Below, piece after piece: positions 16,300 through 49,192 of a DNA stretch of 64,000 nt. This DNA comes from Zasmidium citrigriseum. Taxonomy: Eukaryota; Ascomycota; Dothideomycetes; Mycosphaerellales; Mycosphaerellaceae. A program made the position numbers and the translations under genes. Position 1 is the stretch's first letter. Each line of letters begins with the position of its first letter. A model generated the notes under the pieces. It saw only the letters and a list, made by a program, of their open reading frames with translations. It was not told the DNA's origin and made no database searches. The stretch lies in contig NHNW01000008.1 of assembly GCA_002786025.1 (NCBI GenBank), positions 965,637-1,029,636 of the forward strand. Direction: 5' to 3'.

Positions 16300-17899
16300 A
16301 CTTCCTACGCTTAAAGAATAAGACTTCTTAACTTAGTTTCCTCTAAATTTTAGTATCGCTATAGTAAAGACTATAAAGAATAGCCTTTCGCTCTACGCTA
16401 AGTACTACTTATCTACGTATATCTAGCTAAAGGTCTAATATTATATTTCCCTATTCTTATCTATTACTCCCTATAGCCGTTTATAAGTAGACCTATCTAC
16501 TACTACCTAGATAACTTTAGAAGTATTACGCTTCTACTTTAAGAGGTATAACTAGTATTCGGGTCTCTAACTATAGATATTACGGTTTACTAGCTTTAAG
16601 CTTACTATAGTCGTTAAGTAATAAAGCGCGGTTCTAGTAGTATAATCTCTCCTAGGTACGATATAATATTACCTTTAGGCTAACCTTATATATAAGTAGT
16701 ACCTATATCCTAGAGTCTTCCTAGCCTCTTTTTAGCTATCGTATATCGACGTATCTATAGATCTCTAGGAATATATTATAGTAGAGACTAGCTTAAGTAA
16801 TAATAGCCGATCCGCTAACAACTTTCCGATCTAACAGCTTCCGAGCTACGCTACTCTTAATACAAGGGCATTGGAAGTATTAAGGGCCGCCCTTCGAAGA
16901 CTAATCGACAGGACAGGAGTAGGCATCCGAATTGTTCGCGAGGTAATACCTACACTTAGCAATTTTGCGCTAAGCTTTAGTAATCTTATAGTATAGTACT
17001 ATAATAGTAAGCATAATAAGAGTCTTTCCGAAAACTATTGTGTCGGCAAGAAATATGTAAGGCAGCTAATAGCGTGTAATTGTGCCTCGAAGGCGAGCTA
17101 TGCCTCGTAGTAGCTAGTAGCGTAGCAGCTTGTAGCGGTTATCGAAGAAGAAGAATTGACAGCAATCTTTCTAGTCTTCCTTAGAAAACTACTAGCCGGG
17201 GAACTAAGCGAGTAACTCCGCGTCGTTATCGATCTCCTCCGCCTTATCCTTTCTAGGATTATGCTCCTCGCTAGCCTTCTTCGATAGTTGGTTCTGCTTT
17301 TCTAGTACGGGCTGCTCTTTATCCTCTAAGTCTACGACCTATGGATTCTCCTTAACCTCCTCTTCCTCGTTATATACAAGGCTCTGTTAACGGTAGAACA
17401 TTGTAATCGAACGCTTACTAGATGTATTAATAGGCAAGCTCCTATAGGCGTCCAACAATTCCTCCTAGATAACTTTCCTAACTAAGTACGGGAGCGGGTC
17501 TAGTTAAGGGTATAAATATAGAAAACCCGTCTAGCTAATTATTCCTCTTTTCTAAGATTCCTATTCACCCTTAGATAAACGGGCTTAGTTAAGATCTACA
17601 CTAGCTTAGTCGAAAGCGGGAGTTGGTCTTAGACTATAGGGTATGTCCTTCGACTCTTAGACGCCGTGACGAGCTAGTAGTGCGGCCCGTCTAATCTATT
17701 TGTACGGCTTTATCGTCGGAGGGAAGGACTACTTAGTCGCCGCTAGCCCTATTACGGATGCGGTCTACACGCGTAGACGCCGCACGCTAACCTCTACGTC
17801 TCTCGTGTCGATTGCTCTCTAGCGAGGAAGAATAGTATTGTTAATAACTTAAAAGACGAGAGTGTTAGATTAGCTAAATATCTACTCGTGGAAGATAAA
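16300..17899 (-). pseudogene. SNF2-like ATPase, left fragment of the module array
   Basis: This aligns by eye with 26,040-27,680 of the central ATPase copy over most of its length. The Walker A segment lies at about 17,015-17,065. The C-terminal half (from motif III on) is missing: similarity fades at about 16,300 where the RIP-saturated island begins. Upstream, a likely solo LTR at 17,900 interrupts it. RIP density changes inside the fragment: left of about 16,815 CA/TG are almost gone, to the right they persist. Confidence 0.7.
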
Positions 17900-18121
17900 T
17901 GTTGGAACATCTAGGTTCAAGCGATGTAGAGTAGTAAAACAACTTAAACGGGCTTAATGCAGTGTTCTGTGTACAGCATTTGCCTCGACTCAATTACTTC
18001 GGATACTATATAAGGCCTAGAGTAATCCTAATGTAACCTGTAGGAGACCGACGTAGCCGGGCCTATAATTGCTATAGTTGCTTACAAAACAAAGAGCTGC
18101 AACCTTTAATATTGTCTAACA
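17900..18121. mobile_element. Possible solo LTR, 222 bp
   Basis: It starts TGTTGGAACA and ends TGTCTAACA, i.e. TG...CA with an imperfect TGTTRGA terminal inverted repeat like Ty1/copia-type LTRs, and holds a TATA-like CTATATAAGG in the middle. The central ATPase copy lacks this block at the matching position (27,680), so it looks like an insertion. No clear 5-bp target duplication (ATAAA versus TTAGC), so this is tentative. Confidence 0.4.
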
Positions 18122-18539
18122 TTAGCTAGCACTAGAGATCCCGAAATAGCGTACCGTAAGGGGGTCGCCGTAACACAAGTCTCTACGATCGAGCCTTAGT
18201 CTCAAGTTTTCGGCTGTTCGGTTAAGGGTATTTAGTTTTTAGAGACGCTTTCCGGATAATTCCTCTAGTATCGCTACAGATATGTTCTTTAAAGAGACCT
18301 ACACGTTATTAGCAGATAATCTTATTTCCACGATCTGCTATATAAGTCTGTCGTATATCTTCCTCAACTTATCTCCGCGGCGCTATTTATACTGTTAACG
18401 ATAATCTAAATAGACAGTGCGGAAGATCTTGTAGAGCTTCGAGAAAGTAGAAATATAATCGCGACCGGGTGGGTGTGGATTTAGATATAGTTATAGTATA
18501 GTAATAATGTAACGGCGAGGTGCGCAAGGGTAAGTCGAG

Positions 18540-18930
18540 CTTTATATATAGCTCTCGTATCGTGAAGATTGAAAGATGTAGCATGTAGAAGCAGCTCAAG
18601 CTTAAAGTAAGGCTACGGTGTCGTTGAAATTGAGTAATACAGCACGTAGGGGAAGCTAAAGCTTAAGGTGCGGGGCTAGTGTCGTTGAAATTTAGTAATA
18701 CCGCACGTAGGGGAAGCTGAAGCTTAAGGTGCGGGGCTAGTGTCGTTAAAATTTAGTAATGCCGCGCGTGGGGGAAGCTAAAGCTTAAGGTGCGGGGCTA
18801 GTGTCGTCAAAATTTACTAATGCCGTACGTAGGGGAAGCTAAAACTTAAGGTGCGGGGCTAGTGTCGTTAAAATTTAGTAATGCTATACGTCGGGGGAGC
18901 TAAAGCTTAAGACGCGCGGATAAGATCGTA
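18540..18930. repeat. 61-bp satellite, copy A
   Basis: Five direct monomers of 61 bp start at 18,601, 18,662, 18,723, 18,784 and 18,845, with degenerate edge copies on both sides. Each begins CTTAAGGTGCGGGGCTAG or close to it. It lies between the minus-strand ATPase remnant and plus-strand gene 2, so it occupies the divergent promoter position of the module. Confidence 0.9.
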
Positions 18931-19199
18931 AAGATTCAATAACATCTTCTAGAGGATAAATAGAGAGTCCGGGTGTAGAATACATCTCCGGCAGACTTTA
19001 CGTACGTATACTTATATTCGGACTCTCTCTAGTAGCTTGGAAAGTAATACGACATCTGTCCCCTTTTCCTTGCTCTAGTAAATAACCGAGATTAGAACCG
19101 CGACATAAGCATCTTATAGGTGCACAAAGCTTTATAATCGAGACGTCGAAGGAAACAAGTATTCGTAACGCGTACGAGGAACGCAACAGAATTCATAGA

Positions 19200-20310
19200 A
19201 TAGGGAAACTAAAGATTAGATTGGGGTGCTACGCCTGTACTAATATTAACCTTATACGCGCAGAATTAGTAAAGATCCCCGTGAAGCCTAAAGACATTTT
19301 CTCTCTATATCCTTACGAACCTCTCCTCCGGAGCCCGCTACTACTAAACCCTAAGCTATAGTAGTCGCTAATTAAACTCTACGCATTATTAGCGAACCTA
19401 AGAGGAAGGCCGCCGAGGAAGCCTTAAGAGAGCAGCTTAAGGGGCTTTGGAAATGCACGGAAGCGAAGAAGGTCTTTCGATGCTATATAAGTCCGAGGGG
19501 AGATAAGGTTGTAGGCATAAACTACTAGTTCGATTCTAAGCTGCACAAGAAGAGAGATAAGAAGAATGCAAAATGCTAGGATAAATGTAATAGTAACAAG
19601 TAGAAGGATCCGACGATACAAGTTAAGCCGCACCTAGCTGTCTTAATTTAAGATAGGAGAATATAGAAGGGCCCCGAGACAAAGGATGCTATAAAGCAAT
19701 AGGAGATAATTAGGAGGTCGCTAGTCGATCTAGAGTCCTAGTATAAGGCCGGAGTCCTAGCACAAAGATATAGAAAAGAAGCCTAAGACTATGTCGAGGA
19801 AAGCTCCCTCTAAGCATATAAGGAGCGACGGCGACGAGGATAAAGATAGGAAGAGTAAATAGAAGAAGTCTGCTCTCGGGAAGGGTGTAAAGGGTAAGGA
19901 TACAGAATCTAGCTCGAGTTTGCTAGTAGTACTAGCGAGCACTTATATTCCTAGCTTACTAGTCTAGAGAAAGTCGCTTACTCCTAAAGGTAGCATTAGC
20001 GAGGACCTATATCCCTAGCTTAGCAGTCTGGATGAAGTCGCTTCGAGTTACTCTAAAAGACAGTATCGACAGAACTACGATAATAGCGAGCGAGCTTGCT
20101 GTTCCGTAACGCCGTATTAGTAAGACGGGTAATTTGACAGAAGTTTGTAGCTCGCGTTAAGTAAGCACGGGGTCCGAGCACGATCGATTGGAGTAGAGTC
20201 CGTATTAACGAAGAGAAAATTACTACTAATAAGGAGTTCTAGGCTCTACTGTATCGGAGTAGCGTAGATAGTAAGATAGTTCTTACATTTAGGATTGAGT
20301 ACGTTAACGT
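19200..20310 (+). pseudogene. Module gene 2, copy A (unknown function, RIP-damaged)
   Basis: The C-terminal part of the gene seen intact-like at 28,938-30,312. From about 19,290 the same product can be read: a Pro-rich stretch, then ISEPKRKAAEEAL (19,390), a basic region with NSNKWKDPTIQVK, and a Lys/Glu-rich tail. An intron acceptor GCGCAG with an upstream CTAATATTAAC branch is visible near 19,260. The first exon is not recognisable, and small frameshifts occur near 19,310 and 19,980. Stops are TAG/TAA at Trp/Gln positions. Confidence 0.6.
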
Positions 20311-20419
20311 TAACGCGTAACGTTCCGACTTGCCTAATAGGGATAACCCCGCCGTAGGCGCGCCTACCTTCCTTCCTTCCTAACCTTCTCTCTCGCTTTA
20401 TTCCTACTATTACCCTCTA

Positions 20420-23400
20420 TGTATCCTACGGGAACGCGTAGCGATTATCTCTACTACATTAGCTACATTTATTTACCTAAGCGCGGCCGATAGCTATTAT
20501 AGCTCGTAGGGGCTATAACCTATATAATAACCTGCCGCTGCGCCTAGACAATAATAGCGGTGTCTCCGATAAGAAATTAGTAGCAGCTTAGGTAGGTGCA
20601 GAGCCCTTCGTTCACGACTTGGCCTAAGAGCGTTACGTGGAGCACACTAACAGGTTCCTTAATTTAAGCGCCTACGAATTACGCGAAAACAGCTAGCGAC
20701 AATAGTAGTTTATTAACTTGGCAAAAGAGCACAGACTCGTGAATCCGACTCTTTACATTAAGGCCTTACTAAGAGACGCTCTACTAGCCTCTACTAATAA
20801 ATCCTTAAGCGGCAAGCGACGGAGGTCCTTATCTAACACGCAATTAGTTAAAGAGGGCATGTAGAAGAAGGCTACTCTATCCTTACCTAACGGATCTCCT
20901 ACTACGTCTCCGGTACATTAACCCGCGCCTTATTCGTCTAACACTAATAACAACGACATCTTCTTAGCCGATCGACAGCCCGGCCTTAAGGACTATTAAT
21001 ACGAATTCTAAGAGATTTGTCGCGTCGCTATATTGTCCTCGTACGGGGAGGCTGTTATATCGCGAGAAATAGTATCCTAGTTAGAGCTACTAGACGACAC
21101 TATCCTTAACGACGACATCGAGCCGTTATCTAAGTTAGACGCCTCCACCGCTATATCGTCGAGCTCTATAGCCTCCACCGCGGCGTCGTCAAAATCCCAA
21201 GCTTCTAGCGCGGCGTCGTCGAGCTCTACGGCCTCTACCGCGGCGTCGTTAAAATCCTAAGCTTCTAGCGCGGCCTCGTCGAGCTCCACGGCCTTTACCG
21301 CGGCGTCGTCAAAATCCCAAGCTTCTAGCGCGGCGTCGTTAAAATCCTAAGCTTCTAGCGCGGCATCGTCGAGCTCTATAGCCTCTACCGCTGTATCGTC
21401 GAGCTCTACGGCCTCCACCGCTGCATCGTCGAGCTCTACGGCCTCTACCGCTGTATCGTCGAGCTCTACGGCCTCTACCGCTGTATCGTCGAGCTCTACA
21501 GCCTCTAACGCCCTAGAGACTTCTACGGAGTCCTCGCACTCTAAGTTGGAAGCTCGTGCTCGGAAGGAGTTTATCTGTTTCGAGGGTTAGAGCTAGGAGT
21601 AACTTATTCGACAATTGTTTTCGTGGTTAGCTAAGGACTACTAGAGCGTCTAATATTTCGCCCGCCTACCGGCACCGAAGACATTACCTACCCTACTCTA
21701 GATCCCTACTAGATATACATTACTAACTTTCGACTATAAGAAGCTTAATAAGGCCAGTTAGAAGGATATGTTCTGTTAGGAGCTTTAACACTTGTACCGC
21801 AATCTAAAGGATAGATATGCTTTAGAATAATACGATCTATAGAAGGACAAAGGCGTTAGCTCGGACATACTACCGCGTTAGATCTACATAGTGTGTGAGA
21901 TTAAGAATGCGGACCTATCGTTCGACGAAAGCCGTCTTGTTCGGCCCTCTAGTAGCCTCGACCTCCTAATAATATAGATTATGCACTAGCCGACCGAGTC
22001 GATATATAAGAACAGATTCTACTACAGCGAAACTAACGACCTAGCGAGCCCTTGTCCTTCTCTCCTTAACTAGCGAACCCTAAGCAGCTAGACCTTAGTT
22101 ATTAATTTATTCCCTTTCCGCCTAACTAGGGAGTAGTAGATTAAGGCCGCCGAGAAGTATAGAAAGGCTGGTCGCGACTATCCTTACCGCTACTATCTTA
22201 CTACTACGACTCTCTAGGCTTTCGATTCGTTCTTCGTTTAGGTGGTCTAGTACTTTAAAGCGATAACTATAGTGTTATACGGTCGCTAGGCGACCGAGAG
22301 GACTCTAGAGGTTATAAAGCCTACCTACTTCTAGTCGATAGACTACGGTCTTACCCTCTTCGATAAGGATATATACGTCGCTAGACGGAAGGTATAGGAC
22401 GGCTCCTAGGAGAAGCTACTCTTTGTCTCCTTCTATCTAGAGGCTATCTTCCGAGGGACTAATTTGCGCCGGAAGCGATTGCTAGATCGTATAGTTAACA
22501 TAGTATACTATATCGTAGGTCTATAGGTTAACAATTACGCGAACTATATAATAGCGCCCTACGTTATAGAGTTTATGCCGTACCTACCTAAGAAGCCTAA
22601 CGCTGCCCGATAGAAGATAACCTAGTAGAAGACAGCTCTAAAGAAGGTAACCTAAGTAGTATCCGACTTAACCTAAGAGGTTAGCGAAGATGCTATTAAT
22701 GTCCTTACGGTTCCTCCACCTAGCGGCCTTATTCGGTAATTAGACGATTAGCTTAAGAGCATGTACGAGGAACTTCTCCTACTAAAGGTCCTCGTCGCAA
22801 TTTAGCTCGTATACCTGTTAACTAGAGCTAGGATCCTTAAAACGGTCTCGGTACAACCGTTGCTTAACGTCTTCCTACTCCGCTCCGATATACCGATCTT
22901 AGGTCTCCGTAACGACCTACTCGAGAACCCTCTTACGAAAACGTTCTATATAGCACTTTACGATATTAATGTCTGTATATAGATCGGAAGAAGTAATTTA
23001 TCTACGCGGACCCTACTATCGAAGGGTAACAAAGTCGCGTTAGCTATAGGCCGTCTAATAGCGCTCTTTAGAAGGGTATACGATCGTCTTAGCCTAGGAG
23101 CTTTGCAATTAACTATAGCCTAGTTCGGTACCTTTTTAGGCAAGACAGGCGTTGCTAGGAAAGAATAGGGAGTACAGATACGTGCTCTAAACGAAATGGC
23201 GATACGCCGCTATCTAGCAGGATATCCGGTATTAGGCGTCTAGTATATAGTCGAGTACTAACGAGTACTCGGTCTTACGACGTAGGTTAATCCGACGTAG
23301 AACCCTTCCGAGTTTATAAAGTACTACTAACTTGGATTAGGCAATATACTCTCGCTGCTTGCATAGTACCTAATTCCTCTAGTGTTCGAGTTCTCTAGGG

Positions 23401-23752
23401 CCGAGAGAGGCCGCACGGCTGTAGCTAGCGTATTCCTTCCCGCGGTTAAGAAACTATAGACATACAAGAATCTCTACATAGATCCGTACGTTACCGTAAT
23501 AAAGGATAAGATCGTACGTATAGTTGCTAGCTAGGAACAAATATATCGCGACGAGACTAGTCGATTCGGCGTTCGGAGGGCCCCTAAGGGAACTAATCTT
23601 CTCCGCATTAGCGACCCTAAAGTCGACTACCGCCTAACCCTTAGTGTAATACTAGCTTATATCCCTATATAGTAGCGGCATATTCTCGACTTAGGAGGAC
23701 TTTCTAAGGATTTAGGAGAATTCTCTAGGGATGGAGAAGATTAAGTGGACAT
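20420..23752 (+). pseudogene. Module gene 3, copy A (about 1,100 codons, unknown function)
   Basis: One uninterrupted register runs from about 20,500 to TAA 23,750-23,752. All internal stops are TAG or TAA at likely former Trp/Gln codons; no TGA and no frameshift was found. Order: an N-terminal region with a KSLSGKRRRSL basic patch, an acidic linker, twelve 10-residue repeats (21,141-21,500), then about 750 residues of globular-looking sequence rich in Trp/Tyr/Leu, with segments such as EIKNADLSFDESRLVRPSS and YANYIIAPYVIEFMPY. The C-terminus is acidic. I do not recognise any family. An in-frame start is not certain: an ATG at 20,419 is in another register, so a first intron is possible. Confidence 0.7.
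21141..21500 (+). repeat. In-frame 30-bp repeat of gene 3, 12 copies
   Basis: Exactly twelve 30-bp units, each coding a 10-residue motif of the form A-S-[TS]-A-[AIV]-S-S-[SK]-S-[TQI]. They alternate between an SSSST and an SKSQ type. They keep the reading frame of gene 3 and form a Ser/Ala-rich linker. Confidence 0.92.
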
Positions 23753-23974
23753 AATGTTTACTATTACTATAAAAACAAGATAAGGATGTAGTAATGTATT
23801 ACTAATAATTGCAAGATATAGATATTTTACTTATAGCTAACGATTAGACGATAGAGACATTTTACGGGAATTGCTAATAGTTGGAAGTAATATTAATTAT
23901 GTTGCTAGCAAAATGAGCTTAGAATACTAACAGAACATTTTATTGAAACGTGTATATTAAATCCAGTGCTAGAG

Positions 23975-24300
23975 TTTCAAGACACTAAAGCTAAGGGGAA
24001 ATAGTCTCGAAAGACCTAAGCCGAGGCCTTAAAATCTTGCGACACCGCAGCTAGGGGCCTTAGGATCCTACGACACTACATCTAGGGGCCTTAAAATCTT
24101 GCGACACCGCAGCTAGGGGCCTTAGGATCCTACGACACTACATCTAGGGGCCTTAAAGTCTTGCGACACTATAGCCGGGGCCTCTAGATCCTACGACACT
24201 ACATCTGGGGGCCTTAAAGTCTTGCGATACTATAGCCGGGGCCTCTAGATCCTACGACACTATAGCCGAGGCCTTAAAGTCTTAGGTTATTCTAGCTTAG
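23975..24300. repeat. 31-bp satellite, copy A
   Basis: About ten units of 31 bp arranged as 62-bp dimers, built on GGCCTTAAAATCTTGCGAC and GGCCTTAGGATCCTACGAC. The array lies between the 3' ends of gene 3 (plus) and the ATPase (minus), so it marks the convergent end of the module. Confidence 0.9.
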
Positions 24301-24479
24301 GCGGTGCATTTTCTCGCATTAATTCTAAGAAGGAGCACTTCTCGAGGCATTTAAGATGGTTACGCTAAGCGAGTTTGCAGTACAGAATAGTCTTCTTGCA
24401 TGCAAAATTAATTAACACGAAGATAGAGTGTGAACGCGTAAAAGGAAAGCACATTTCATATTAGAAACTTAATACACAT

Positions 24480-27400
24480 TATTTACATCTAGTACTCTTC
24501 CTCCTCTCCTCTATTACCCTCGCCTAACGCTACCTAGAACTACTCTAATCCTCCCTTAGTTGAACTTATAAGCTAGAGCTTAGGCTCGAAGCCCTCTAGC
24601 ACGAGTCGATATCTAAACGTAACCGGATTCTTTTAACTATTAATAATACGGCAGGATCTGCCGCCGGCCTAGATAATAAATCTCACTCGATCTAGAACGT
24701 TAAGATAGATAGTTCGAAACGCTCGAACACACGAAAAGCCTTAGCTAAGAAGTTCGTAGGTGCTAAGAAGAAAGGCGGGACCTTTCTTAGCTATCGCGAC
24801 AAGTAGCCTTCTAAGATCGGCCGGATTCTCGCCGTCGCTCGCCTAGCGAGCTTCGTACGCTTCTCTAAGACGGCGTTAGTCGGTAGTAATATCCTCTCTC
24901 TCTACGAGTATAGGCGCGTCCTTATTACCGGCATTATCCTAGATATCTTCGTTGAACTCGTTAACTATATCTTAGCGCTCTCCTTTGTCTGTAGACATAT
25001 CCGATATAATTGCCTCGGCTCGACCGATCTTCTATCTCTCGAATGCGTATCTTAAGACGGCGACACTAAAGGGATCTCGTATAAAAAGGATAACCTTCTC
25101 TTAGTTACCCTACTAATCCTAAGACTTTCGAAACCTCTTACATATCTTTACTATATAGTTGCACTTTAGCGAAGTGTTAATAAGCTCCTATCCGTAGTCC
25201 TTTATAAACTAATGTTCCTAGAGTTGCTCGTAGATCTCTTTAGCAAGCTTTTTATTAACCTTCTTCTAGATCTTATAGTTCTTCTTCTATAGATGCGCGA
25301 GGTATAGAAAGTTCGAGATAATCGCTATCTATCTAGAGGAGTCGATGTTCTTGCTAGTATCCCGTTATAGCTTCGGCCCTCTGTTCTTCTCTAACTTTAC
25401 TTGCTACTTCTTCAAGCGCTCCTAGTATTCCGTATCGACTATAGCCTTGAAATCCGCTGCAACTTTATTTATATCGTCTTAATACTTATAAGGTGTGGAA
25501 ATGTAGATATCGCGGTAGCGGTACGGTAGTATAGGAACGGTAGGGTAATCGAACTACCGAGAGGACTAGGTGCGACGAAGTACGCATTTCTCTACAAACT
25601 GCCTAAGGAACGTAACAACTTCTTCGTTGTTAGCGCGGATGTTAGTAGGTGCGTCTACGATCTTAACCCCCTTGTAATTCTTTCGCTAGTTACGGACAAC
25701 TTTGTTCTTACTCTTAATCCGCCTAAAGTTGTCGAGTCGAAGCGCCTTAATATATTTAATATCCTCGCCTTGTAGGCTAAACTAGTTCTCGAGGTAATTA
25801 GTGCTCTAGGGGTAGTAGTAGATCGCCGACGGCGTAGGGTTTCCTTAGGTCCTTCTACTCTTACTAAGAGGGTTGCGGTTAATTTTACTAGGTCCTGTGC
25901 CCTAAGAGTACTTAGGCTCGTAGAGGCGATTCTCGAAAAGACTTATAACTCTAAACAACTCGTTTATAGCTTTCGTAAACGGGGTAGCGGAAGTCTAAAG
26001 GCTACGAGTAAATTCGAATCTCGCTATAGTTAAGCTTATGAAGAACGACTTCTCGCTGCGCGCCGAGTACTATTCGTTAACAAATATCTAGCCTAGAGCC
26101 TAATACTATGTTGTACCGTTATTGTTCACCGCTCCCTATAGCTATTTATAAGCAGACCTGTCTACCGCTACCTAGATAATCTAAGAAGTATCGCGCTTCT
26201 GTTTTTAGAGGATCTAACTAGTATCGGCGTCTCTCTCCGTAAAGGTTACGTCTCTAATAGCTTAAAGCTTGCTATTATTATAGAGTAACAAAGCACGGTT
26301 CTAAGCACGACGTGCGATTACGTTTAGGCTAACCTTGTATATAAGCATTACCTGCATGCTAGAGTCTTCTCGGTCTCCCTTCAGCTATAGTATATTAACA
26401 TGTTTGTAAATCTCTTAGACTGTGTTGTAGTAGAGACTAGCTTGCGTAATAATAGCCGACCCCCCGACTACCTTCTAATCTAGGAGCTTCCGGGTTACGC
26501 TACCCTTAACATAAGGGTATTAGAAGAACTAACGATAGCCGCTACTATAATAGTCGATACGGTTGCCTCTTAAATACTCGTCGACAGGATAGGAGTAGGC
26601 ATTCGAATTGAGCGCTAGATAATCTTTGCATTTGGCGATGTCGCGCTAAGCTTTAGTAATCTTATAGTATAGCACTATAATAGTAAGTATAATAAGAGTC
26701 TTTCCAAAACCTATTATGTCGGTAAGAAACATGTAAGGAAGCTAATAGCGGTTAGAATAAGCTATAATCCACTAGACTGCATAGAATTAATATGCGTAGA
26801 GGGACGTCTTTATGCCCTAAACGCGCACTATTCCTCGTAGTAGCTAGTAGCGGTTATCGAAGAAGAAGAACTAATAGTAATCTTTCTAGTCTTCCTCGGA
26901 AAATTAGTCGCTAGGGAACTAAGCGAGGAATTCGGCGTCGTCGTCGATCTCCTCTGCCTAGTCTTTTTTAGGATTATACTCCTCGGTAGCCTTCTTCGAT
27001 CGCGTGTTCTACTTTGGTAGTACGGGCTGCTCTACTTCCTCTAAGTTAATAACCTCTAGTTTCTCTTTAGCCTCCTCTACGTTAGTAGTTTCCGCTATCT
27101 TAGCCTCCTTTTTCGGGTCTATAAAGCCCTAATGGCTGTATAGACTGTTAATTGTGTGCCTATAGTCTAGGCCGTCTAGCAAATCTGTCGCGGTCTTTAA
27201 CAACTTCTTTAGGACGTTAAACTTTAGCTTATATAGGAATAGGTCCGGTGGAAGGTATACGAAGGGAAAGAACTCCGTCTAGTATACTACCTAGGCCTAG
27301 TACTAAGCTAATTTAAGCACCTTTTCCTCCTCTAAATAGTTATTTTAAGACGAGCGAGCTTGGTTAAGATCTGCCTCGGCTTGCTTAATAGCGGGAGTCG

Positions 27401-28550: not shown

Positions 28551-28826
28551 GGGTAGCTGAAGCTTAAGGTGCGAGGCTAGTATCGTTAAAATTTAGTAAT
28601 GTAGTACGTAGGGGGAGCTGAAGCTTAAGGTGCGGGGCTAGTATCGTCAAAATTTAGTAATGCAGCACGTAGGGGGAGCTAAAGCTTAAGGTGCGGGGCT
28701 AGTGTCGTTAAAATTTAGTAATGCAGTACGTGGGGGGAGCTAAAGCTTAAGGTGCGGGGCTAGTATCGTTAAAATTTAGTAATGCTACACGTCGGGGGAG
28801 CTGAAGCTTAAGGTGCGGGGATAACG
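28520..28826. repeat. 61-bp satellite, copy B
   Basis: Four full monomers start at 28,563, 28,624, 28,685 and 28,746, with a partial one at 28,807. Same unit and same divergent position (ATPase 5' side / gene 2 5' side) as at 18,540-18,930. Confidence 0.92.
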
Positions 28827-28937
28827 TCAATTTAAGCTAGGCAACTGTTTGCTATATATTAACTTTCACGCTTATTTGCACTTTCAACCTCTTATTACTA
28901 CCGCTATCCGGCAAGTTTAGCGGCCGCGCACTACACA

Positions 28938-30312
28938 ATAGCTAAAAACGGCGGCGATAATAATTTCAACCCTGCTTTACCGACCCTAACGAAACGCAAA
29001 CCTAAACGGGAGTGGACGAAGGAGGAAAAGCAGAAAGACGAGTAAGAGAGAAAAGAGAAGGCCGCGCGGATTAAACACAATAAGCTCGTTTTGATTATAG
29101 GCGACGACACACCGCTATAGAAAGTTTTCACATACAAATAGTTATACGACACCTGCCTGCTCCTCCTTAGCCTAGTAGACGACCGAGACGAGGAAGGCTA
29201 GCGTAACAATCTTACGGGCGTATAGGATTTCGTTAAAGACACGGCCGATAAGATTAGTATTTATAACTAGTGCGAGTGGTATAACAAGATCTTCGAAGCA
29301 AAGAGGAACAAAGGTAAGATTAGAATATTATTCGCCCGTTGTTCATAAGCTAACATAAACAGAACCCGTCGTTTACCCCCCTAAACCTAAGGCCGTTTCC
29401 TACCCGAACACTTCTCCCGAGCCCGCTCCTACCTAGCCCTAGACTAAAATAGTCGCCGATTAAACTCCGCGCGTTATTAGCGAACCTAAGAGGAAGGCCG
29501 CCGAGGAAGCCTTAAAAGAGCAGTTTAAGGGGCTTTAGACGTACACACAAGCGAAACGAGTGTTTTATTATCGTGGAGACTTAAAAGCCGGCGAGGCGAC
29601 GAGTATTAACGACTAGTTTCACTACTAGTTGTATAAGAACAAGGATAAGCAGAATACTAAGTACCCGAACAAATAGACTAGTAACAAGTAGAGGGAGTAT
29701 ACGGGGCATATTAAGACGTAGCTACAAATAAAGATTCGAGATAGTGGAAGATAGAAGCGCCCCGAGGTAAAGAAGGCCGTAAAGGAACAAAACAAGATTA
29801 AGATAGCGCAACGAGATCTAGAGTCCGCGTAGAAGAAAGATTAAAAGAAGCCTAAGAGCGTACCGAGGAAAGCTCTCTCTAAGCATCTAAAGAGCGACGG
29901 CGACGAGGACGAAGAAGGGAAGGGTAAGCCGAAGAAGTCTACTATTAGCGAGGGTGTAAAGAGTTAGGATACACTACTAGCGAGGAAGGACATCCCTAGC
30001 TTACTAGTCTAGAGGAAGTCGCTTCGAGTTACTCTAAAATACAGCCTAGACAGGACTACGATAATAGTAAGCGAACTTGCTATTCTATAACGCCGTATTA
30101 GTAAGGCGGGTAATTTAAAGTGGGAGATGTTTATAGCTCGTGTTAAGCGAGTATAGGGTTCGAGTACGATCGATTGGAGTAGGGCCCGTATTAACGAAGA
30201 GAAAATTACTACTAACGAGGAGTTTTAGGCTCTACTACATCGGAGTAGCGTAGATAGTAAGATGGTTATTACGCTAAAGATTAAGCACATCGATTATACG
30301 TAGGCAGAGTAA
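28938..30312 (+). pseudogene. Module gene 2, copy B (spliced, unknown function)
   Basis: Two exons, 28,938-29,313 and 29,363-30,312. The 49-bp intron starts GTAAGA, has a textbook branch GCTAACA (29,349-29,355) and ends CAG; the frame continues across it. Exon 1 opens with a basic NPALPTLTKRKPKREW stretch and a Lys/Glu helix; exon 2 has a Pro-rich linker, ISEPKRKAAEEAL, a Lys/Asp-rich basic region and a tail with SSTIDWSRARINEEK ending at TAA 30,310. About 440 codons. The expected start codon reads ATA at 28,938-28,940, which is ATG after a RIP change. Internal stops are TAG/TAA. High charge suggests nucleic-acid or chromatin binding (inference). No family recognised. Confidence 0.7.
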
Positions 30313-30399
30313 GTTGTTAGCCTTAAGAGTAGCAGTAATCGCATGGAAATGAAAGCTTATCTGTCTGTTTGCTTCCTTGATAATTCTTATCCAAGCTCT

Positions 30400-33300
30400 C
30401 CGTCTTCGTCTCTTAAATATTAATAGACCCCGTGGAACTTAGTAGGCTTAATAGAGCAACCGAGTATTAAACAAAAGACTTTAAGGTATACTAGAGGTTA
30501 ACTGTTAAGGAGCTCCTTAAAAATTAGTAGGGCTAGACCTAGTATATTAAGCTACAGAATCGCTAAGCTTAAAGCAAAATAATTATTCGGGTTCCTTACT
30601 AACTAAAAGACCTACTGTTAGCTTGTAGAGTTAAAAGTTTAAATGAGAGCGACGATAGCCCTTATTATATGTAAAATCTGTTGCGGAGTCCGGGGATATA
30701 AAAGCTAATAGACGCCTTACTTTATATTACTAGTATTCTTTAGAGTAAGGACCGAGCAGGAGATCCCGTGCTAGCTTCTACTAAGAAGACCTCTAGCGGG
30801 AAGCGGCCGAGGTCTTTATGTAACGCCGGATCTGTTTAGAAGGCTATATCCGAGAAGGCTACTCTGTCCTTATATAACGAATCTTACCTACGCCTCTAGT
30901 ACATTAACTATACTTCATTTACCCGATTCTACTAACAACGACATTTCCGTTGCCGATCGACAGCTTAATAGCGAGGGCTAGGAGACCGTTACATCGCGAC
31001 AATTGTAGTCTTAGTTAGAGTTACTAAACGACACTAGACTCGACGACGACGTCGAGCCATTATCCAAGTCGGAGGCCTCTAATGCTATATCGCTTAAATC
31101 TAAAGCCTCTACCGCGGCGTCGTTAAAATCCCAAGCTTCTAGCGCGGCGTCGTTAAAATCCCAAGCTTCTAGCGCGGCGTCGTTAAAATCCTAAGCTTCT
31201 AGCGCGGCGTCGTTAAAATCCTAAGCTTCTAGCGCGGCATCGTTAAAATTCAAAGCTTCTAGCGCGGCATCGCTTAGCTAAAAAGCCTCTAGCGCGGCAT
31301 CGCATAAATCCAAAGCCTCTATAGCGGCGTCGTTAAAATTCAAAGCTTCTAGCGCGGCATCGCTTACTTGAAAAGCTTCTACTAGGACATTATTAACTTT
31401 AGCTGCGGCCGTAACAGGATTAGAATATTACGAGCTCCACGGTATCTAAGCGAGAAGCTTCTAAACATAAAGGAATTAGAGAGCTTCGAGGATTAGAGGC
31501 CTTGAAATTAGAATTACACGGTATCTTATTCAACTGTTGTTTAAGTAGTTAGCCGAGATTTACTAGAATGTTAGATATTTCGCCGGCCCGCTAACACCTA
31601 AGACATTACCTACGCCGCTCGAGCTACCCCTCGGATATGCGCTACGATCTTTCTACTACGAGACTATCGACGCGGTTACTAGGATAAATATTAGGAACAT
31701 ACCCGAGCCTATCGGATGGGTTTGCTTTAGCAAAGCACAATTACTAGTAGAAGAAAGGCCTTGGCTCTAACATACTGCCGCGTGAGATCTGCTCGCGATA
31801 TGAGATTAATAGTGCGGATCTATAATTCGACGAAAGGCGTCTTGTTCGGCTATCCGGTAGCCTCGAACTATTAGCCGACAGAGTCGATATACAAGGGGAT
31901 ATTCTAGTACGGCGAAAGTAACGACCTAGCGAGCCCTTGTCCTTCTCTCCTCTATCGGCGAACCGACAGCAGTAAGTGCTTAGTTATTAATATAATACTA
32001 TTGCGCCTTGCTAAGGGGTAGTAGAAAAATGCGGCTAGGGACCACGGACTAGATAGTGTTAACTACCCTAATCGCTACTTTCTTTCTCCTACGACTCTCC
32101 GCTCTTTCGATTTATTCTTCGCGTAGGTGGTCTAGCACTTCTATGCGATAACTCTAGTGTTATATAGTCGCGAGTTGACCGAGAAGACTCTAGAGGCTAT
32201 AAAGCGTACCTACCTTTAGTCGATGGACTACAGTCTTACGCTCTTCTGTTAGGACGTATACGTCCGTTAATAGCAAGTAGAGAACGACTCGTTTAAGAAG
32301 CGACTCTTTAGCTTATACCACCCGGAGGCTATCTTTAGATAGACTAGCTAATTTGCGCCTAAAACGATAGCTGGATCGCTTAGTTAACATAGCATGCTAT
32401 ATCGCGGGTCTGAAGGTTAACAACTATACGAACTATATAATAGCGCCCCACGTTATAGAGTTTATACCGTACCCGCCTAAGACACCTAACGCTACCCGGC
32501 GGAAGACAGCCTAGTAGAAGGTAGCTTAGAAGAAGGCAACCTAAGCAGTGTCCGACTTAACTATAGAGGACGGTAAAGATACCATTAATGTTAGAAGACA
32601 GCCTAGGCATTAGCCGACTCAACCCCGAAGAACGGTAAATCTACTTTCAACGTCCTTAGGATCTTATCTGTAAGAGAAGATTATTCTCCACGCCGAAGAG
32701 ACAATTACGTTCGCGGGTAAGTTAAAGGGCTTAAGACTACTTCCGAAGGACTTCTCCTACTAAAAGTGCTCTTCGTAGCTTAACCCGTATTGCTTTAGAA
32801 ACATTCTCCCACTAAAGGTCCTCGTCGCAGTTTAGCTCGCGTGTCTTTTAACTAGAGCTAGTATCGTTAGGACGGTCTCGGTTTAGCTATTGCTTAATGT
32901 CTTCCTGCTCCGCTTAGACATACCTATAAAGGATCTTTATTCCGACCTTCTTTAGAACGCTCTTGCGAAGGCGGTATATATAGCACTTTACGGCCTTTAT
33001 GTCTATAGATAGATAGAGGGAGGTGTTCTTACTAAGGGGCCTACTATACGTGTAATAAATCTCTTTAGAAGGGCATACGATCGTCTTAGCCTAGAAGCTT
33101 TGCAAACAACTATAGCCTCGTTCGGTACCTCTTTAGGCAAGACAGACTCCGTTGGAGAAGAACTAGGAAGATAGATGCCTAATCTCGGTGAAATAGCGAC
33201 ACGCTGCTATCTAGGGCGATATCTAGCACTAAGCGTCTAGTACATAGTTAAGTACTAACGAATACTCGGTTATACGACCTGGATCAACCCGCCGCAACAC

Positions 33301-33600
33301 TCTTCTAAATTTATAAAACATCGCTAACCTAGATTAGGCGGCGTACTCTCGCTATTTGCACGAAGGATAAGATAATGCGTGTACTTGCTAGATAGGAACA
33401 AACCTATCGCCACGAGACGAGTCGTTTCGCTAGAACTAAGAAAATCGCCCCCGCATAGGCGACATTAAAGTGGACTGCCGCCTAACTATCCGTGCGATAT
33501 TAGCTTACATTCCTATACAGCCGCGGCACATTCTTAACTTTAGAGGACGTTCTAAGGATTTGGGAGAATACTAAAGGGATAGAAGATAGGAGAGTAAGGA
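30400..33600 (+). pseudogene. Module gene 3, copy B
   Basis: Diverged second copy of the gene at 20,420-23,752. The match is clear from about 30,700, through the repeat linker (31,075-31,374), to the C-terminal region near 33,560. It has several small indels relative to copy A, including an extra segment near 32,590-32,690 and a deletion around 33,350, so it is more broken. The 5' 300 bp are not alignable by eye. Confidence 0.65.
31075..31374 (+). repeat. In-frame 30-bp repeat of gene 3 copy B, 10 copies
   Basis: Ten 30-bp units coding the same 10-residue motif as copy A (ASSAASLKSQ type dominates), two units fewer than copy A. Copy number differs by whole units, so the frame is kept. Confidence 0.92.
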
Positions 33601-33609
33601 TTAGGCTAT

Positions 33610-35565
33610 ATTCGAAGACGATGTTTTGTATAATATAACTACCTATAAGATATTAAGATATATTAGGGGAAAATATAACTATAATCTCGATAGATCCCGA
33701 ACTAGAAAGAACTTCTAAAAAACCCTAGCCCTAAAACGCGGAGTACTAAGTATACGTCTACTACTAAAATTTACTAGTAAGCTATATAGTCCTTCGTCTC
33801 TATACCTATACCTTTATTTATATATTACTATATAACGTTATATATTACTTAATATATTAATCTCTAGTACCCTATACTCTTCTACTATCTAATTACGCTA
33901 TTACCTACTATCTATACTTTATAGCGCCCTTTAATAATAAGGATCGTATATATATTAAACTATTACTTTAAGAAGGACTCTCTATAGATAATATTTAGAT
34001 CTAGTTACGCTACTTCTAGTTTACGCTCTATAGTTATCTATTATATTAAGAAGTTTCGTATATATAGTACTATCTATAGACTAAATAGCGAGCTTAGAAG
34101 GCCTAAAGCTATTATACTAGAAGTAAGGAACTTTATATAAGAGTAGTAGTTAAAGAAGACTACTATATAGGTAGAGGAAATATAAGGGTTTATACTTAGC
34201 TACTTTAGACTCTATTTTATTAAGAGTATAATTAATAGAGTATATAGTAGTAAAGGTTTTATAAGGAAGGTTATTTAGTAATATTATTCTTTATATACTT
34301 CTCTATTTATAGTAATATTATTATATTAGTTAGTAAGTACTACTCCTCCTATCTTTAGGTTATAGTAAGTACTTACTAATATATAGTAGCTAATAATACT
34401 ACTACCCGTTAATAGGGTATATTACTTATCTATATAATTATATAGCCTCTTAATCTTCTTTAACGACTCGAGCTTAATAGTATACTCTTTCTTAGTACGT
34501 AAGTTAGTATTCTATTATTCTTTCTTATTATTAGAGGCTATTAGGGTATAGTCTAGTAAGGGGGTAGACTAGAGAGTAGGTTAACGTCTAACAAAAATTC
34601 TATTATAGTAGATTTAGGAGTAGTAGATAGAGTAGTAGATCTAATACCTATAGGCTAGATATTAGCCTTATATAACTACTTTATAATAACTTTTAGCTTA
34701 ATTAATAGTAGCTCGAGCTATTTATACTACCTTAACGTCTTACTAATTACTAGCTAGTTATCTCTACTATTAAAGGATTAAAGTAGCCTTATCTCTACCT
34801 TAGATCGGTTTATAAGGCGGAAGTAAACCTCTATATATTATCGAATAAGGTAGTATAATAGTCCTCTAGATCTAGTATAGTTCTTAATATACTAGTAGTT
34901 TCTAATAATCGTAAAATTAACCTTATAATCTTCCTTAATTACTATAAAGAAGACTTTATTAAGTAAGTAATAGGTTTTAAATTAACCTATCTAATTAACC
35001 TTAATCTATATAGGTTACTTTAGAGGTATAGGCGATAGTTTAGTAGTAGTAGTAGCGCTAGTAACCTTCTTACTAAGTACTATTATTACTATTACTATCG
35101 CCTATAATAAGATACTAGATAATAAGTATAAGTAATAGACTAGTATTAAGAGTAGGAGTAATAGCTATCCTTTATACGCTACTAAAGGCTCTTACTACTC
35201 CTTATACTAGCTAAAAGTAGCGTAAATTAACTTAGTAATAGTTATAATAGATATAGTATATTACTATATTATATCTTAATTAATAAACCTACTATAATAT
35301 AGATATTTCCTATATAAATAGGTAGAAGGATATAGTTTACTAGTAAATTTAGGTAGTAGGCGTATTTTTAGTACTTTAGCTTTTAAGACTAGAGTTCTTA
35401 AAATTTAGAATAGGCTTAAAACTTTAGTAAAGTAGATATAGAGTTAGAAAATACTACTATAAAGCTACTAATACTCTAAAAGATTAAAGCTATTTAAAGA
35501 GAGTATTAAATACTAAAGCTAGGGAAGTAATATTAAAAAACTAAAGCTAGGATAAGATAGTCTCT
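33610..35565. repeat. RIP-saturated segment inside module copy B
   Basis: About 1.95 kb with practically no CA/TG, flanked on both sides by module sequence that still has many. Module copy A has only about 230 bp at this place (23,752-23,980). I see no reading frame, terminal repeat or target duplication that would name it. Its right end (35,440-35,560) holds loose 30-35-bp repeats reminiscent of the 31-bp satellite. Confidence 0.6.
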
Positions 35566-35569
35566 AAAT

Positions 35570-36000
35570 ACTACTACCGGGAGAGTAAGATCTAGAAACA
35601 CTACGGCTGGAGGCCTTAAGATCCTACGACACTATAGCTAGAGGCCTCGAAATCCTATAGCACTATAGCAGGGGGCCTCAAAATCTCGTAAGACTACGGC
35701 CGGGGGCTTGAAAATCCTACGATACTACGATTGGGGCCTTACAATCTTGCGACACCGCAGCCGGAGGCCCCCAAATCCTACGACCCCATAATTAAGGCCT
35801 CTAAATCTTGCGATACTACGGCTAGGGGCCTAAAAATCCTACGACACTACGATTAAGGCCTCAAAATCTTGCGACACCGCAGCCGGAGGCCCCTAAATCC
35901 TACGACCCCACATCTAGGGGCCTTAAAGTCTTGCGACACCACAGCCGGGGCCTCTAGATCCTACGACACTACAGCCGAGGCCTTAAAGTCTTAGGTTATT
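35570..36000. repeat. 31-bp satellite, copy B
   Basis: About 13 units of 31-33 bp of the same family as 23,975-24,300 (units with TCCTACGACACTAC and TCTTGCGACACCGCAG), ending in the same TCTTAGGTTATTCTAGC flank as copy A. Confidence 0.9.
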
Positions 36001-36253
36001 CTAGCGTAGGCGGTGGATTTGTTTAAGATGCTATAGCAGAGGCTGTGTAGTTAAGGGCGGTAAAATCTTACATCTGTAATAGTGGACCTGTTTGAAAGGC
36101 GCATCGGGGTAAGGCTAGATATCCGGAATATGTCTTATACCTACGCGAGTAGAATAAACCTACATTGCTATCGAGAAGAGAAAGGAGAGGATATTAGGGC
36201 GCAAGAGCGCGTAAACAGCATAGGTTGCGAGGAATTAGGGGAAACTACAAACC

Positions 36254-37760
36254 TTACGATAGGGTAATGTAATTGTCCTCGTCTTTAGACATAAGCTTAA
36301 AGGTATTCTCTCTTTCGTTCTACCTGTTATTCTACCTAACCTCTCTACGCTTACGAGAGGCTACCTCTGTCTACTCTAATCCTCCCTCGCTTAAACTTAT
36401 AAGCTAGAGTTTAGGCTCGAAGTCCTCTAGCACGAGTCGATATATAAATGCAAACGGATTTTTTTAACTGTAAATAGTACGAGGGATATAGAATAAAGCC
36501 CGACCAAGACATTTATCGGGATCCTTCTTAGCTATTGCGACAAATAGCCGTCTAAGATCGGCCGGATTCTCGCCGCCGCTCGGCTAGCGGGCTTCGTGTG
36601 CTACTTTAAGACGGCCTTCGTGGGTAGTAATATACTATCTCTTAATAGGTGCAATTTCTCCGGTAGAGGTTATAAGACTTGATCGTATGAATTTACCTAG
36701 TATAGGTATGTCTTAAGACGACAACACTAAATAGATCTCGCATAGAAAGGGTAACCTTCGCTAAGTAACCCTACTAATCCTAAGATCGTCGAAACCCCTT
36801 GCATAACTTTACCGTAAAGCTGCACTTTAGCGAAGTGTTTATAAGCTCCTGTCCGTGCTCCTACATAAAACGAGATTCCTAGACCTAATCGTAGACGTTC
36901 CCTTACAAAGTTAGAAAGGCAGATATGTTAATAGATCTCCTTAGTAAGCTCGACATTAATCTTCTTCCACATCTCTATTTCTATCTTCTATAGATGTACT
37001 AGGTATAGGAAGTTCGACATAAGTGCTATCTATCTAGGGGAGTTAATGTTCCTTTAAGTATCCGTTTGCGGCTTCGTCCCTCTACTGTTTTCTAGCTTCG
37101 CCTACTACTTTCTTAAGCGCTTCTAGTATTCTTCTTCGACTATAATCTTATAGTGCGCTACAACTTCATTCACGTCGTCTCGATACTTGTAAGGCAAAGT
37201 AACATAGATATCGTAGTAGTGCTAAATAATCAAAGCAGCGAGAGGACTAAGTGCGACGAAGTACGCATTTCTCTACGAACTGCCTAAGGAACGCAACAAC
37301 TTCGTCGTTGTTAGCGCGGATGTTAGTAGGTGCGTCTGCGATCTTAGCCCTCTTAAGCTCTTTTGCGGATCTTGCGCGGGCTTATTCTTTACTAAAACGA
37401 GCCGAGGATTTTGAGTCGAAGTGCCTTAACATACTTGACATCGTCGCCTTGTAGGCCAAACTGCCTCTCGAGGTAATTAGTGCTCTAGGGGTGGTAGTTA
37501 ATCGCCGACGGCGTAGCGTTTCCTTAGCTCCTTCCACCCTTAGTAAAAGTGTTCCAGGTGATTTTGCGGGCCCTATGCTCTAAGAGTACTTGAGCTCGCA
37601 GAGGCGATTCTCGAAAAGACTAATAACTCCAAGCAACGCGTTTACAGGTTTCTTAACGGGGTAGCGGAAGTCCAAAGGCTGCGAGTAAATTCCAGGTTCG
37701 CTATTTTGGGTTGGAAAGACAGGCAATGCTCCTTGTCCCGTGAACACAAATCTGCCGCAC
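36254..37760 (-). pseudogene. SNF2-like ATPase, C-terminal part, module copy B
   Basis: Corresponds to the C-terminal 40% of the ATPase at 24,480-28,550. Motif III reads LWTSATP at about 37,655-37,680, with the Trp codon intact where the central copy has TAG, which supports the reading. IRANNDEVVAFLRQFVEKC and VLRRT follow at about 37,255-37,330. The frame ends at TAA 36,254-36,256 after a basic Arg/Asn tail. Everything N-terminal to about 37,760 is missing and is replaced by unrelated sequence, so the module array is truncated here. Confidence 0.7.
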
Positions 37761-37968
37761 ACGATAGCATTTTCCCTGTCGTGGGGAGCAAGGACGCATA
37801 GGGGTCATCGACGAATTAACGCGTATCCTAAAGGACCTAAACTCACCTAACGCGTGGCACTGTACTAGGTGTATTGCTCTGGAGTTGTTGATCAACCTTC
37901 TTCTACTCCTTCTAAGCCAGCTTCTCCAACTTGTCTTGCTCTTTCTCACGCTCTTTCTCACGCTCTTT
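37760..37968 (-). other. Junction segment with Lys/Glu-rich frame
   Basis: Sequence between the truncated ATPase and the FAS fragment. One minus-strand frame reads a (KERE)-like run from a short GAGAAAGAGCGT repeat followed by KLEKLA, i.e. a possible coiled coil. It may be host sequence trapped at the breakpoint. No further assignment. Confidence 0.35.
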
Positions 37969-49139: not shown

Positions 49140-49192
49140 TATTAAATTAATACCTATACCTATACCTATACCTATACCTATACTTATACCTA
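49140..49192. repeat. Hexanucleotide repeat (TATACC)n
   Basis: About eight tandem copies of TATACC/TACCTA with one variant. Not the fungal telomere repeat TTAGGG/CCCTAA. Confidence 0.85.

Follow-up and report, generated by a model that had tools for sequence, protein, structure and literature searches.

Two collinear RIP-degraded arrays of Zasmidium citrigriseum carry a divergent SNF2-like ATPase gene and a large repeat-containing gene

The window (the whole 64,000-nucleotide stretch of DNA analysed, on the contig here labelled C127) contains an array of two head-to-tail units, and a second array is present on another contig (C1). The following features of the window array were distinguished (coordinates, strand, description):

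16344..37704, no strand, whole array: two head-to-tail units of ~9.7-10 kb each (blastn of the window against itself, end alignments)
16344..18500, minus, truncated SNF2-like gene (5' two-thirds), decayed: frameshifting indels, codon constraint absent overall
18618..18911, no strand, 61-bp satellite, left copy, ~4.8 units (TRF): same place in the C1 array
18930..20400, plus, 'gene 2' stretch of the left unit: conserved between copies, without clear coding signal; possible short exon at 19751-20134
20748..23720, plus, gene 3A: ~990 codons in one frame, inner gene
21141..21511, plus, 30-bp coding repeats of gene 3A: 10-residue, Ser/Ala/Thr-rich (TRF, translation)
24025..24283, no strand, 31-bp satellite flanked by gene 3A and the central SNF2-like gene, each with its 3' end towards it (TRF): also in the C1 array
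24420..28500, minus, central SNF2-like ATPase gene, full length (protein search, helicase motifs, codon constraint)
28545..28820, no strand, 61-bp satellite, right copy, ~4.5 units (TRF)
28830..30400, plus, 'gene 2' stretch of the right unit: without clear coding signal
30737..33610, plus, gene 3B: decayed copy of gene 3
31089..31381, plus, 30-bp repeats of gene 3B (TRF)
33718..35399, no strand, inserted repeat of ~1.7 kb with ~70-bp terminal inverted repeats: heavily RIPped, foreign to the unit
35598..35993, no strand, 31-bp satellite, right copy (TRF)
36000..37704, minus, truncated SNF2-like gene, 3' third, decayed

An earlier sequence-only reading had proposed a head-to-tail tandem array, and this was borne out by a blastn comparison of the window with itself, in which 16344-23741 matched 26009-33587 at offsets of 9.7-10.1 kb and, beyond the transposon-like insert that enlarges the right-hand unit, the offset was 11.5-11.8 kb, with block identities between the units of ~69-90%. 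The 61-bp, 30-bp and 31-bp repeats identified with TRF likewise occupy equal relative places, as had been claimed. The proposed two large copies and one fragment are better described as two units whose ends lie inside truncated SNF2 pieces, since the SNF2-like gene spans the unit junction. The left end of the array corresponds to unit position 26009 and the right end to 26027; the ends thus overlap at one point of the unit, with a short direct overlap (TCGCTAT), and homology halts at both, none above background being detected past them in eight of eight extension tests. Inspection of the array ends by eye revealed neither a target-site duplication nor a terminal inverted repeat, and no recombinase was found for the array. 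The insert of the right-hand unit shows inverted self-matches (33718-33787 and 35330-35399, 79% identity) and a CpA o/e of 0.02 in 34001-35000, and has relatives on five contigs (C46, C2, C120, C69 and C1); it is missing from the equivalent site of the C1 array, where its two flanks adjoin.

The central SNF2-like gene crosses the unit junction near 26019 and comprises ~1,300-1,360 codons, with 66 TAG, 19 TAA and 1 TGA stops in 24420-28559. In a protein search of its own genome it matched the C1 copy with 1703.9 bits and 63% identity. Inspection by eye distinguished ordered helicase motifs in one continuous frame: (i) YQ...W / LADxxGFGKT, (ii) an SATP-like block and (iii) a C-terminal QxxGRxxRxxxSQ-like block. 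The GFGKT and QAG(S/G)RSCRIINSQ blocks were recognised by eye in both full copies, and an un-RIPped relative on contig C94 carries, again by eye, LADTMGFGKT and QVSGRACRLIDSQ motifs. Profile scores were low. The best match to PF00176 (16.0 bits, E 0.0065), obtained with the C1 copy read through, lies under the curated cut-off of 24.9, and the C94 relative matched Helicase_C (PF00271) with 17.4 bits (E 0.0055; cut-off 23.5) and SNF2-rel_dom with E 0.095. The window copy matched no SNF2 family of Pfam, whether its stops were replaced by X or read through. In an hmmsearch with a profile of host SNF2 proteins, the C1 copy reached E 4e-4 (best of 42 frames, stops as Q) and the window copy E 1.1 (best stretch 0.005), or 0.51 with stops as X; blastp of the SNF2-like protein against eight host SNF2 loci gave a best E of 0.41. 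A PDB search with the coding-frame query yielded no match; the four PDB matches of the SNF2-family comparison, are labelled 'Helicase-like protein', a protein known as Mot1. The protein-collection search, in a collection that may hold few fungi, also gave no match. The structure predictions of this analysis (mean pLDDT 42.4 and 32.3) produced unusable models. The SNF2-like ATPase gene read earlier on the minus strand is real but very divergent, with weak support from profiles.

Gene 3A is interrupted by 40 TAG and 14 TAA codons. The earlier reading of gene 3 as coding is supported by comparison with a diverged, little-RIPped homologue on contig C69, which revealed an excess of transversions at third codon positions (for first, second and third positions, 46/35/82 in one stretch of 302 codons and 75/54/97 in another of 265). 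Gene 3 belongs to a dispersed family with relatives on seven contigs (C69, C68, C61, C66, C62, C124 and C94). As the sequence-only reading had stated, it fits no known family: Pfam gave no match for the window frames (stops as X) or for the C61, C69 and C62 relatives, and one of three frames of the C124 relative gave a match at E 0.19. Nothing was found for two gene 3 relatives in the protein collection (which may hold few fungi) or in a viral-contig scan for gene 3. A dispersed short repeat was considered for gene 3B, but blastn did not detect it in the window.

The third proposed gene, a spliced 'gene 2' on the plus strand, fared differently. Long between-copy alignments of this stretch showed no third-position excess, and its best forward frame scored no better than the reverse strand (454 vs 460). 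A short exon is possible at 19751-20134, where a short alignment leans to third positions (27/27/44, p 0.05), as does that with the right unit of C1 (31/25/47, p 0.02); these two alignments are interdependent and come from a large number of frame pairs tried. Of the three-gene module that had been proposed, the real unit is supported and the number of genes is not: 'gene 2' lacks a clear coding signal, and the signs of selection concern an inner pair, gene 3A and the SNF2-like gene.

The second array (C1:1682303-1703686) is collinear with the window array over 17.2 kb at 78.6% identity, with matching gene order, strands and satellites and with unrelated flanks. Its presence at an unrelated locus supports the argument that the fixed arrangement marks a real unit. 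Between the arrays, left units share 79.2% identity and right units 73.0% (78.6% without the insert region), and these values exceed those for left against right unit inside one array (66.4 and 63.7%). The many transversions and indels agree with the earlier view that the copies are not recent. Co-occurrence elsewhere, to which the sequence-only reading had tied its unit, is confined in the own genome to these two arrays, the only ones found in the one genome searched: there the satellites accompany both gene 3 and the SNF2-like gene, while most gene 3 relatives elsewhere lack the latter. An ordinary SNF2 gene located ~2.5 kb from the C124 gene 3 relative was considered as a second module and rejected, because it matches PF00176 strongly and the SNF2-like gene of the array has no match to it. 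On C94, the closest SNF2 relative and a scrap of gene 3 lie ~27 kb apart; the gene 3 orientation is wrong for a module and the match is weak.

The ends of the C1 array correspond to unit positions 26049 and 25896, inside the SNF2 gene like those of the window array. They bracket the point of the unit at which the window array ends and lack ~153 bp there. The ends differ between the loci, by 30-40 bp at the left and by ~130 bp at the right, and all of them fall within the same 153 bp of the unit. Past the array ends, 33 of 34 extension tests remained inside background. A protein search of flank against flank gave two matches (31 and 32% identity), with the window side in a Pkinase stretch. The right flank of the window array contains pieces of other genes; the left flank is an island RIPped throughout and matched no other DNA, so a shared flank may have been lost there.

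These observations bear directly on an ancient segmental duplication, in which a tandem SNF2/gene 3 host locus would have been copied with its surroundings, the flanks lost or rearranged and the copies RIPped, with no mobility needed. Such a history would suit the dispersed gene 3 family (of whose contigs only C94 is matched by the SNF2 gene of the array), the array ends free of any mobility signature found, the gene fragments of the right window flank, which resemble a rearranged region, and the precedent of X3X3R8, interpreted as duplicated endogenous genes (PMC3017866). Yet the flanks share no DNA or protein homology save the two low-identity matches, although the arrays end in the same 153 bp, and the C1 array is an island, CpA being near normal within ~1-2 kb on either side. 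We consider this history credible but unlikely; in its plain form, which the sequence-only reading had named as fatal to its module, it is disfavoured because the flanks are unshared.

A subtelomere-like amplicon, i.e., tandem arrays near chromosome ends undergoing ectopic exchange, would fit the position of the window array ~26 kb from a contig end next to RIPped islands, and the near-identical patches that suggest exchange between arrays. It is improbable given that the C1 array lies ~144 kb from its contig end with mostly un-RIPped fetched flanks, that no telomere repeat was seen by eye in the last 200 bases of the window contig and that only two arrays were found. Cargo of a Starship, a giant transposon with a DUF3435 tyrosine recombinase, is highly improbable. 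Starships are described as giant cargo-mobilising elements of Pezizomycotina (PMC12134995), but DUF3435 (PF11917) had no match on C127 or C1, and in the genome the matches above cut-off were three stretches of one degraded gene on C70, with one sub-cut-off match on C116.

Codon-position analysis separated the inner from the outer copies. In the central SNF2-like gene, transversions between the arrays on the two sides of the junction numbered 59/38/106 and 50/42/91 (pooled 109/80/197), whereas in the truncated end pieces they numbered 67/55/62 and 69/58/70 (pooled 136/113/132); the pooled chi-square gave p = 3e-13 and 0.30, respectively, and Fisher's test p = 6e-6. Within 0.8-1.2 kb of the array ends, the truncated pieces lean to third positions (34/27/41 and 32/31/44); it is on their remainder (33/28/21 and 37/27/27) that the contrast in constraint depends. 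One 4-bp indel separates the arrays in the central SNF2 gene. Gene 3A differs from its C1 counterpart in the left unit by one 3-bp indel, while gene 3B differs by 13 indels, 12 of which are not multiples of three (10 of 11 without the poorly aligned 3' end). The count for gene 3A is lowered by homogenisation of 21444-22643; outside this patch, in 22830-23400, gene 3A has one 3-bp indel vs three frameshifting ones in gene 3B. The codon bias of gene 3A between the arrays is weak (38/33/48). Transversions drop to 0-1.0% between left units in 21444-22643 and to 0-4.1% between right units in the equivalent of 18444-20543, and this patchy near-identity suggests exchange between the arrays, which can shift codon-position signals about. 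Judging from the codon constraint in the central SNF2 gene and the few indels in gene 3A, this convergent pair was apparently functional after the arrays parted, and the outer copies decayed.

Both arrays carry a RIP signature. With the insert left out, CpA o/e in the window array is 0.17-0.72 per kilobase over 17-38 kb, compared with 0.00-0.10 in most kilobases of its neighbouring islands; in the C1 array it is 0.18-0.40 over most of the length. The frames of both arrays are broken, with RIP stops throughout, and these stops seem to be later than the divergence of the arrays, the inner pair having apparently worked over a long period and only then been inactivated.

The history that we favour, and judge fairly probable, is that of a low-copy two-gene block of ~21 kb whose relocation as a unit was followed by divergence and finally by inactivation through RIP. 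Its active part would be one convergent pair, gene 3A (plus strand, encoding a large protein whose family is undescribed) and the divergent SNF2-like ATPase gene (minus strand), and an older tandem duplication of the ~10-kb unit would have left the flanking copies of both genes, which are truncated or decayed. The whole block, ending in the truncated SNF2 pieces, would then have reached two unrelated loci, on C127 and C1, and selection would still have acted on the inner pair as the two versions drew apart. Since similar duplicates do not survive RIP in a sexual fungus, this divergence probably took place in different genomes or during a period of RIP inactivity. Once both versions were together as sufficiently similar copies, RIP would have written stop codons throughout both, and occasional exchange between the arrays would have generated the near-identical patches. 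We infer this order of events, as well as the movement of the block as one piece, perhaps via a circle. The value of a 2.0-unit array as proof of a circle is weakened, since a tandem duplication always ends at its own junction; the points left needing explanation are the SNF2 frame intact across the unit junction and the ends common to two loci. A bolder and rather doubtful version would see here an undescribed low-copy fungal mobile element of ~20 kb, circular when transmitted and encoding a new large protein along with the divergent SNF2-like ATPase. The head-to-tail junction of two units would restore its SNF2 gene, and the element would have come into this genome on two occasions, from source lineages that had diverged, before each insertion was killed by RIP.

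If the inner pair did move as a unit, fungi would harbour a class of low-copy gene-pair elements around an SNF2-like motor, which standard annotation would overlook, all their frames being broken by RIP. Comparing inner copies with outer ones offers a simple route to the once-functional genes of a RIPped repeat, using transversions and indels only and no de-RIPping. It is also predicted that, in a RIP-active genome, paralogues whose divergence took place under selection came together only late.

The SNF2-like gene resembles SNF2-family ATPases in its motif blocks, present in the expected order in one frame, and differs from them in scores below curated cut-offs and in the lack of a host SNF2 match under E 0.41. 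A five-gene cluster of wine yeast reportedly re-inserts as a multi-gene cluster via circles, with breakpoints that differ among insertions. A circle would explain why the two ends of an array coincide on a circular map; the breakpoints differ in wine yeast, while here a single stretch of 153 bp contains them all. Among published systems, the nearest parallel found is X3X3R8, a RIP-degraded SNF2 gene-cluster repeat of Parastagonospora (Stagonospora) nodorum SN15 (Hane and Oliver, 2010; PMC3017866). It carries a Rad5-like helicase gene and a Rad6/ubiquitin-conjugating gene, and nine copies bear genes, six of them with some or all genes thought functional (PMC3017866). No UBC domain was detected in the window frames scanned, which were part of the total and in which RIP lowers sensitivity. 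Compared by description only, both systems are RIP-degraded multi-gene repeats with tandem SNF2-type helicase genes, further uncharacterised ORFs, a fixed arrangement and several genomic copies, and RIP broke the frames of several X3X3R8 genes as well. They differ in that the SNF2 partner here is gene 3 and that only two arrays were found, both with broken frames.

The window covers the last 64 kb of its contig (C127:965637-1029636; the contig ends at 1,029,636) in a genome assembly of 44.4 Mb in 148 contigs. Self-comparison showed head-to-tail copies at an offset of 9.7-10.1 kb (11.5-11.8 kb beyond an insertion), with tandem repeats of 61, 30 and 31 bp at corresponding positions in both units. 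The tandem array described in the sequence-only reading is thus real, and wider than claimed there: DNA searches of the same genome (queries 24300-30300 and 30300-36600) detected one further array, on contig C1 at about 1682.3-1703.7 kb, and also matched relatives of gene 3 (contigs C61 and C68) and of the inserted repeat at other places. Matches of the satellite-bearing query parts were confined to the two arrays, a weak result since the search skips simple repeats. The window array (16344-37704) comprises:

16344..18500, truncated copy of the SNF2-like gene (terminal piece)
18930..20400, plus strand, 'gene 2' stretch of the left unit
20748..23720, plus strand, gene 3A (left unit)
24420..28500, minus strand, central SNF2-like gene, crossing the unit junction near 26019
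28830..30400, plus strand, 'gene 2' stretch of the right unit
30737..33610, plus strand, gene 3B (right unit)
33718..35399, inserted repeat
36000..37704, truncated copy of the SNF2-like gene (terminal piece)

The window bears a very strong signature of repeat-induced point mutation (RIP), as judged from the observed/expected (o/e) CpA ratio per kilobase, which is 0.00-0.10 at 12-16 kb, 34-35 kb and 45-64 kb, 0.16 at 16-17 kb and about 1 in gene-bearing stretches. Within the array it is 0.17-0.58 (17-34 kb) and 0.32-0.72 (35-38 kb); the array has therefore been RIPped, but not completely. Positions 45000-64000 form a RIP island that reaches the contig end and is nearly devoid of CpA and TpG (o/e 0.00-0.09); no telomere repeat was seen by eye in the final 200 bases. 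Adjoining the array end, the minus strand of 37704-39809 carries a frame with two stops corresponding to the dehydratase and insertion domains of fatty-acid synthase beta, with a hydrolase-like stretch (by eye) beside it.

The C1 and window arrays are collinear for 17.2 kb (78.6% identity), and collinearity resumes beyond the insertion. In a four-unit alignment, the left units share 79.2% and the right units 73.0% identity (78.6% without the insert region), vs 66.4 and 63.7% for left against right inside a single array. The two-unit array therefore predates the split of the loci. The similarity is patchy: transversions fall to 0-1.0% between left units (21444-22643) and to 0-4.1% between right units (equivalent of 18444-20543, left-unit coordinates), the closest pair at the unit's right end is the two window units, and at the left end window left/right ties with window right/C1 left. 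We read this pattern as putative exchange between and within arrays. The heavily RIPped, ~1.7-kb inserted repeat has ~70-bp terminal inverted repeats and relatives at C46, C2, C120, C69 and C1:1070k, and its site on C1 is empty; it resembles a DNA transposon, one that would have inserted beside gene 3B after the arrays parted. Near this site, the right unit on C1 carries a different stretch of extra DNA, ~1.9 kb long and fully RIPped (about C1:1684.5-1686.4 kb).

All four array ends fall within the SNF2-like gene: the window array starts at unit position 26009 and ends at 26027, and the C1 array starts at 26049 and ends at 25896. Extension past the ends stayed at background level in 33 of 34 tests, the exception being 40 bases at the C1 right end (score matched by just 14 of 500 random segments). 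DNA comparison reported no homology between the flanks of the two loci; a protein search of flank against flank gave two matches (31 and 32% identity), on the window side in a protein-kinase stretch. The C1 array is flanked on both sides by largely un-RIPped sequence.

The window copy of the SNF2-like gene matched no SNF2 family with its stops as X, and gave no SNF2 match in Pfam or PDB when read through. The C1 copy (stops as Q) ranked top of 42 frames against a profile built from eight SNF2 proteins of the host (E 4e-4), the match covering the ATP-binding block; the same frame of the window copy reached E 1.1 (best stretch 0.005), or at best 0.51 with stops as X. Profile-profile comparison scored this frame highest, though weakly (E 0.0097, probability 4%), the other five reaching 0.26-0.83. 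When both copies were combined in one profile with an un-RIPped relative from contig C94, PDB listed four matches at E 0.1 or better (0.010-0.011), all 'Helicase-like protein', which we take to be Mot1. The ATPase proposed earlier is thus SNF2-like in the order of its motifs and by weak profile scores; in Pfam it lies below the SNF2-rel_dom cut-off (C1 copy, E 0.0065). The C1 frame retrieved the window copy from the same genome with 1703.9 bits (63% identity), and C94 at 37-39%. Three SNF2 matches with equal scores in this RIP-active genome (C60:8001, C65:56912 and C134:71600, one of them 8 kb from the contig start) are possibly recent identical copies.

Because RIP makes transitions only, transversions between the arrays were counted per codon position. 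The central SNF2-like gene gave 59/38/106 (first two-thirds) and 50/42/91 (last third), and the terminal pieces 67/55/62 and 69/58/70; pooled, this is 109/80/197 (chi-square p = 3e-13) vs 136/113/132 (p = 0.30; Fisher p = 6e-6), the p values being guides, with sites non-independent. The central gene shows in-frame indels and one 4-bp indel, and two 56-bp gaps appear to be a product of differing unit cut points. Counting against selection on the inner pair, the terminal pieces show a third-position lean close to the array ends (34/27/41 and 32/31/44), though not in their remainder (33/28/21 and 37/27/27). Gene 3A differs by one 3-bp indel over about 2.97 kb, and gene 3B by 13 indels, 12 of them frameshifting (11 and 10 without the badly aligned 3' end). 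The low count in gene 3A is due in part to a homogenised patch; outside it, at 22830-23400, gene 3A has one 3-bp indel vs three frameshifting ones in gene 3B. Its codon bias is slight between arrays (38/33/48), clear against the C69 relative (46/35/82 in 302 codons, 75/54/97 in 265 codons) and not clear against that on C61 (17/15/20). Long alignments of 'gene 2' lack a third-position excess, and its reverse strand aligns equally to the forward; one stretch (19751-20134, ~130 codons) leans to third positions (p 0.05 and 0.02, non-independent and from many frame pairs tried). Codon-position transversions and indels thus support the SNF2-like gene and gene 3 of the proposed three-gene module, but not gene 2. 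After the arrays parted, selection seems to have acted on the convergent pair formed by the central SNF2-like gene and gene 3A, with the outer copies already in decay.

Relatives of gene 3 occur in the same genome on C69, C68, C61, C66 (search match only), C62, C124 and C94; that on C69 is almost free of RIP and contains a few stops and an intron-like gap. Two un-RIPped relatives (locus L058, about 1589; locus L057, about 5470) have an in-frame stop at the identical place (GGTGTCTAA / GGTGTTTAG), past which similarity resumes, pointing to an intron, readthrough or a shared pseudogene. A dispersed repeat of ~154 bp, shorter than the Neurospora RIP length limit, was found at L053:5780-6020 (C61) and in 40 other matches, 75-85% identical (40 of 145 candidates scored; further copies are likely). 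Outside the arrays, the own-genome search placed the SNF2-like gene on C94 only, where a weakly matching fragment of gene 3 lies ~27 kb away, oriented wrongly for the module. Co-occurrence of the SNF2-like gene and gene 3 was therefore confined to the two arrays, no clear pair being found at an independent locus of this genome. Genome-wide, a single DUF3435 gene (the type of Starship captains) exceeded the cut-off; it lies at C70:484061-485419 and is stop-degraded.

According to a passage in PMC3017866, RIP in Neurospora depends on duplicates sharing 80% identity or more over 400 bp. Since like copies would not be kept intact over many sexual cycles, the two copies would have diverged separately, or in a period of RIP inactivity, before they came together. 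Arrival of the block from two sources, hybridisation or a prolonged asexual phase would be consistent with such a history. The best explanation, which we favour with modest confidence, is a RIP-inactivated block that relocated and whose inner pair was selected while diverging; this confidence is slightly lower because the end pieces lean to third positions. Mobility of the block is plausible, if unproven. Searches of the open-licence PMC literature gave no description of the SNF2-like/gene 3 pair; the closest parallel found there is X3X3R8 of P. nodorum (PMC3017866).
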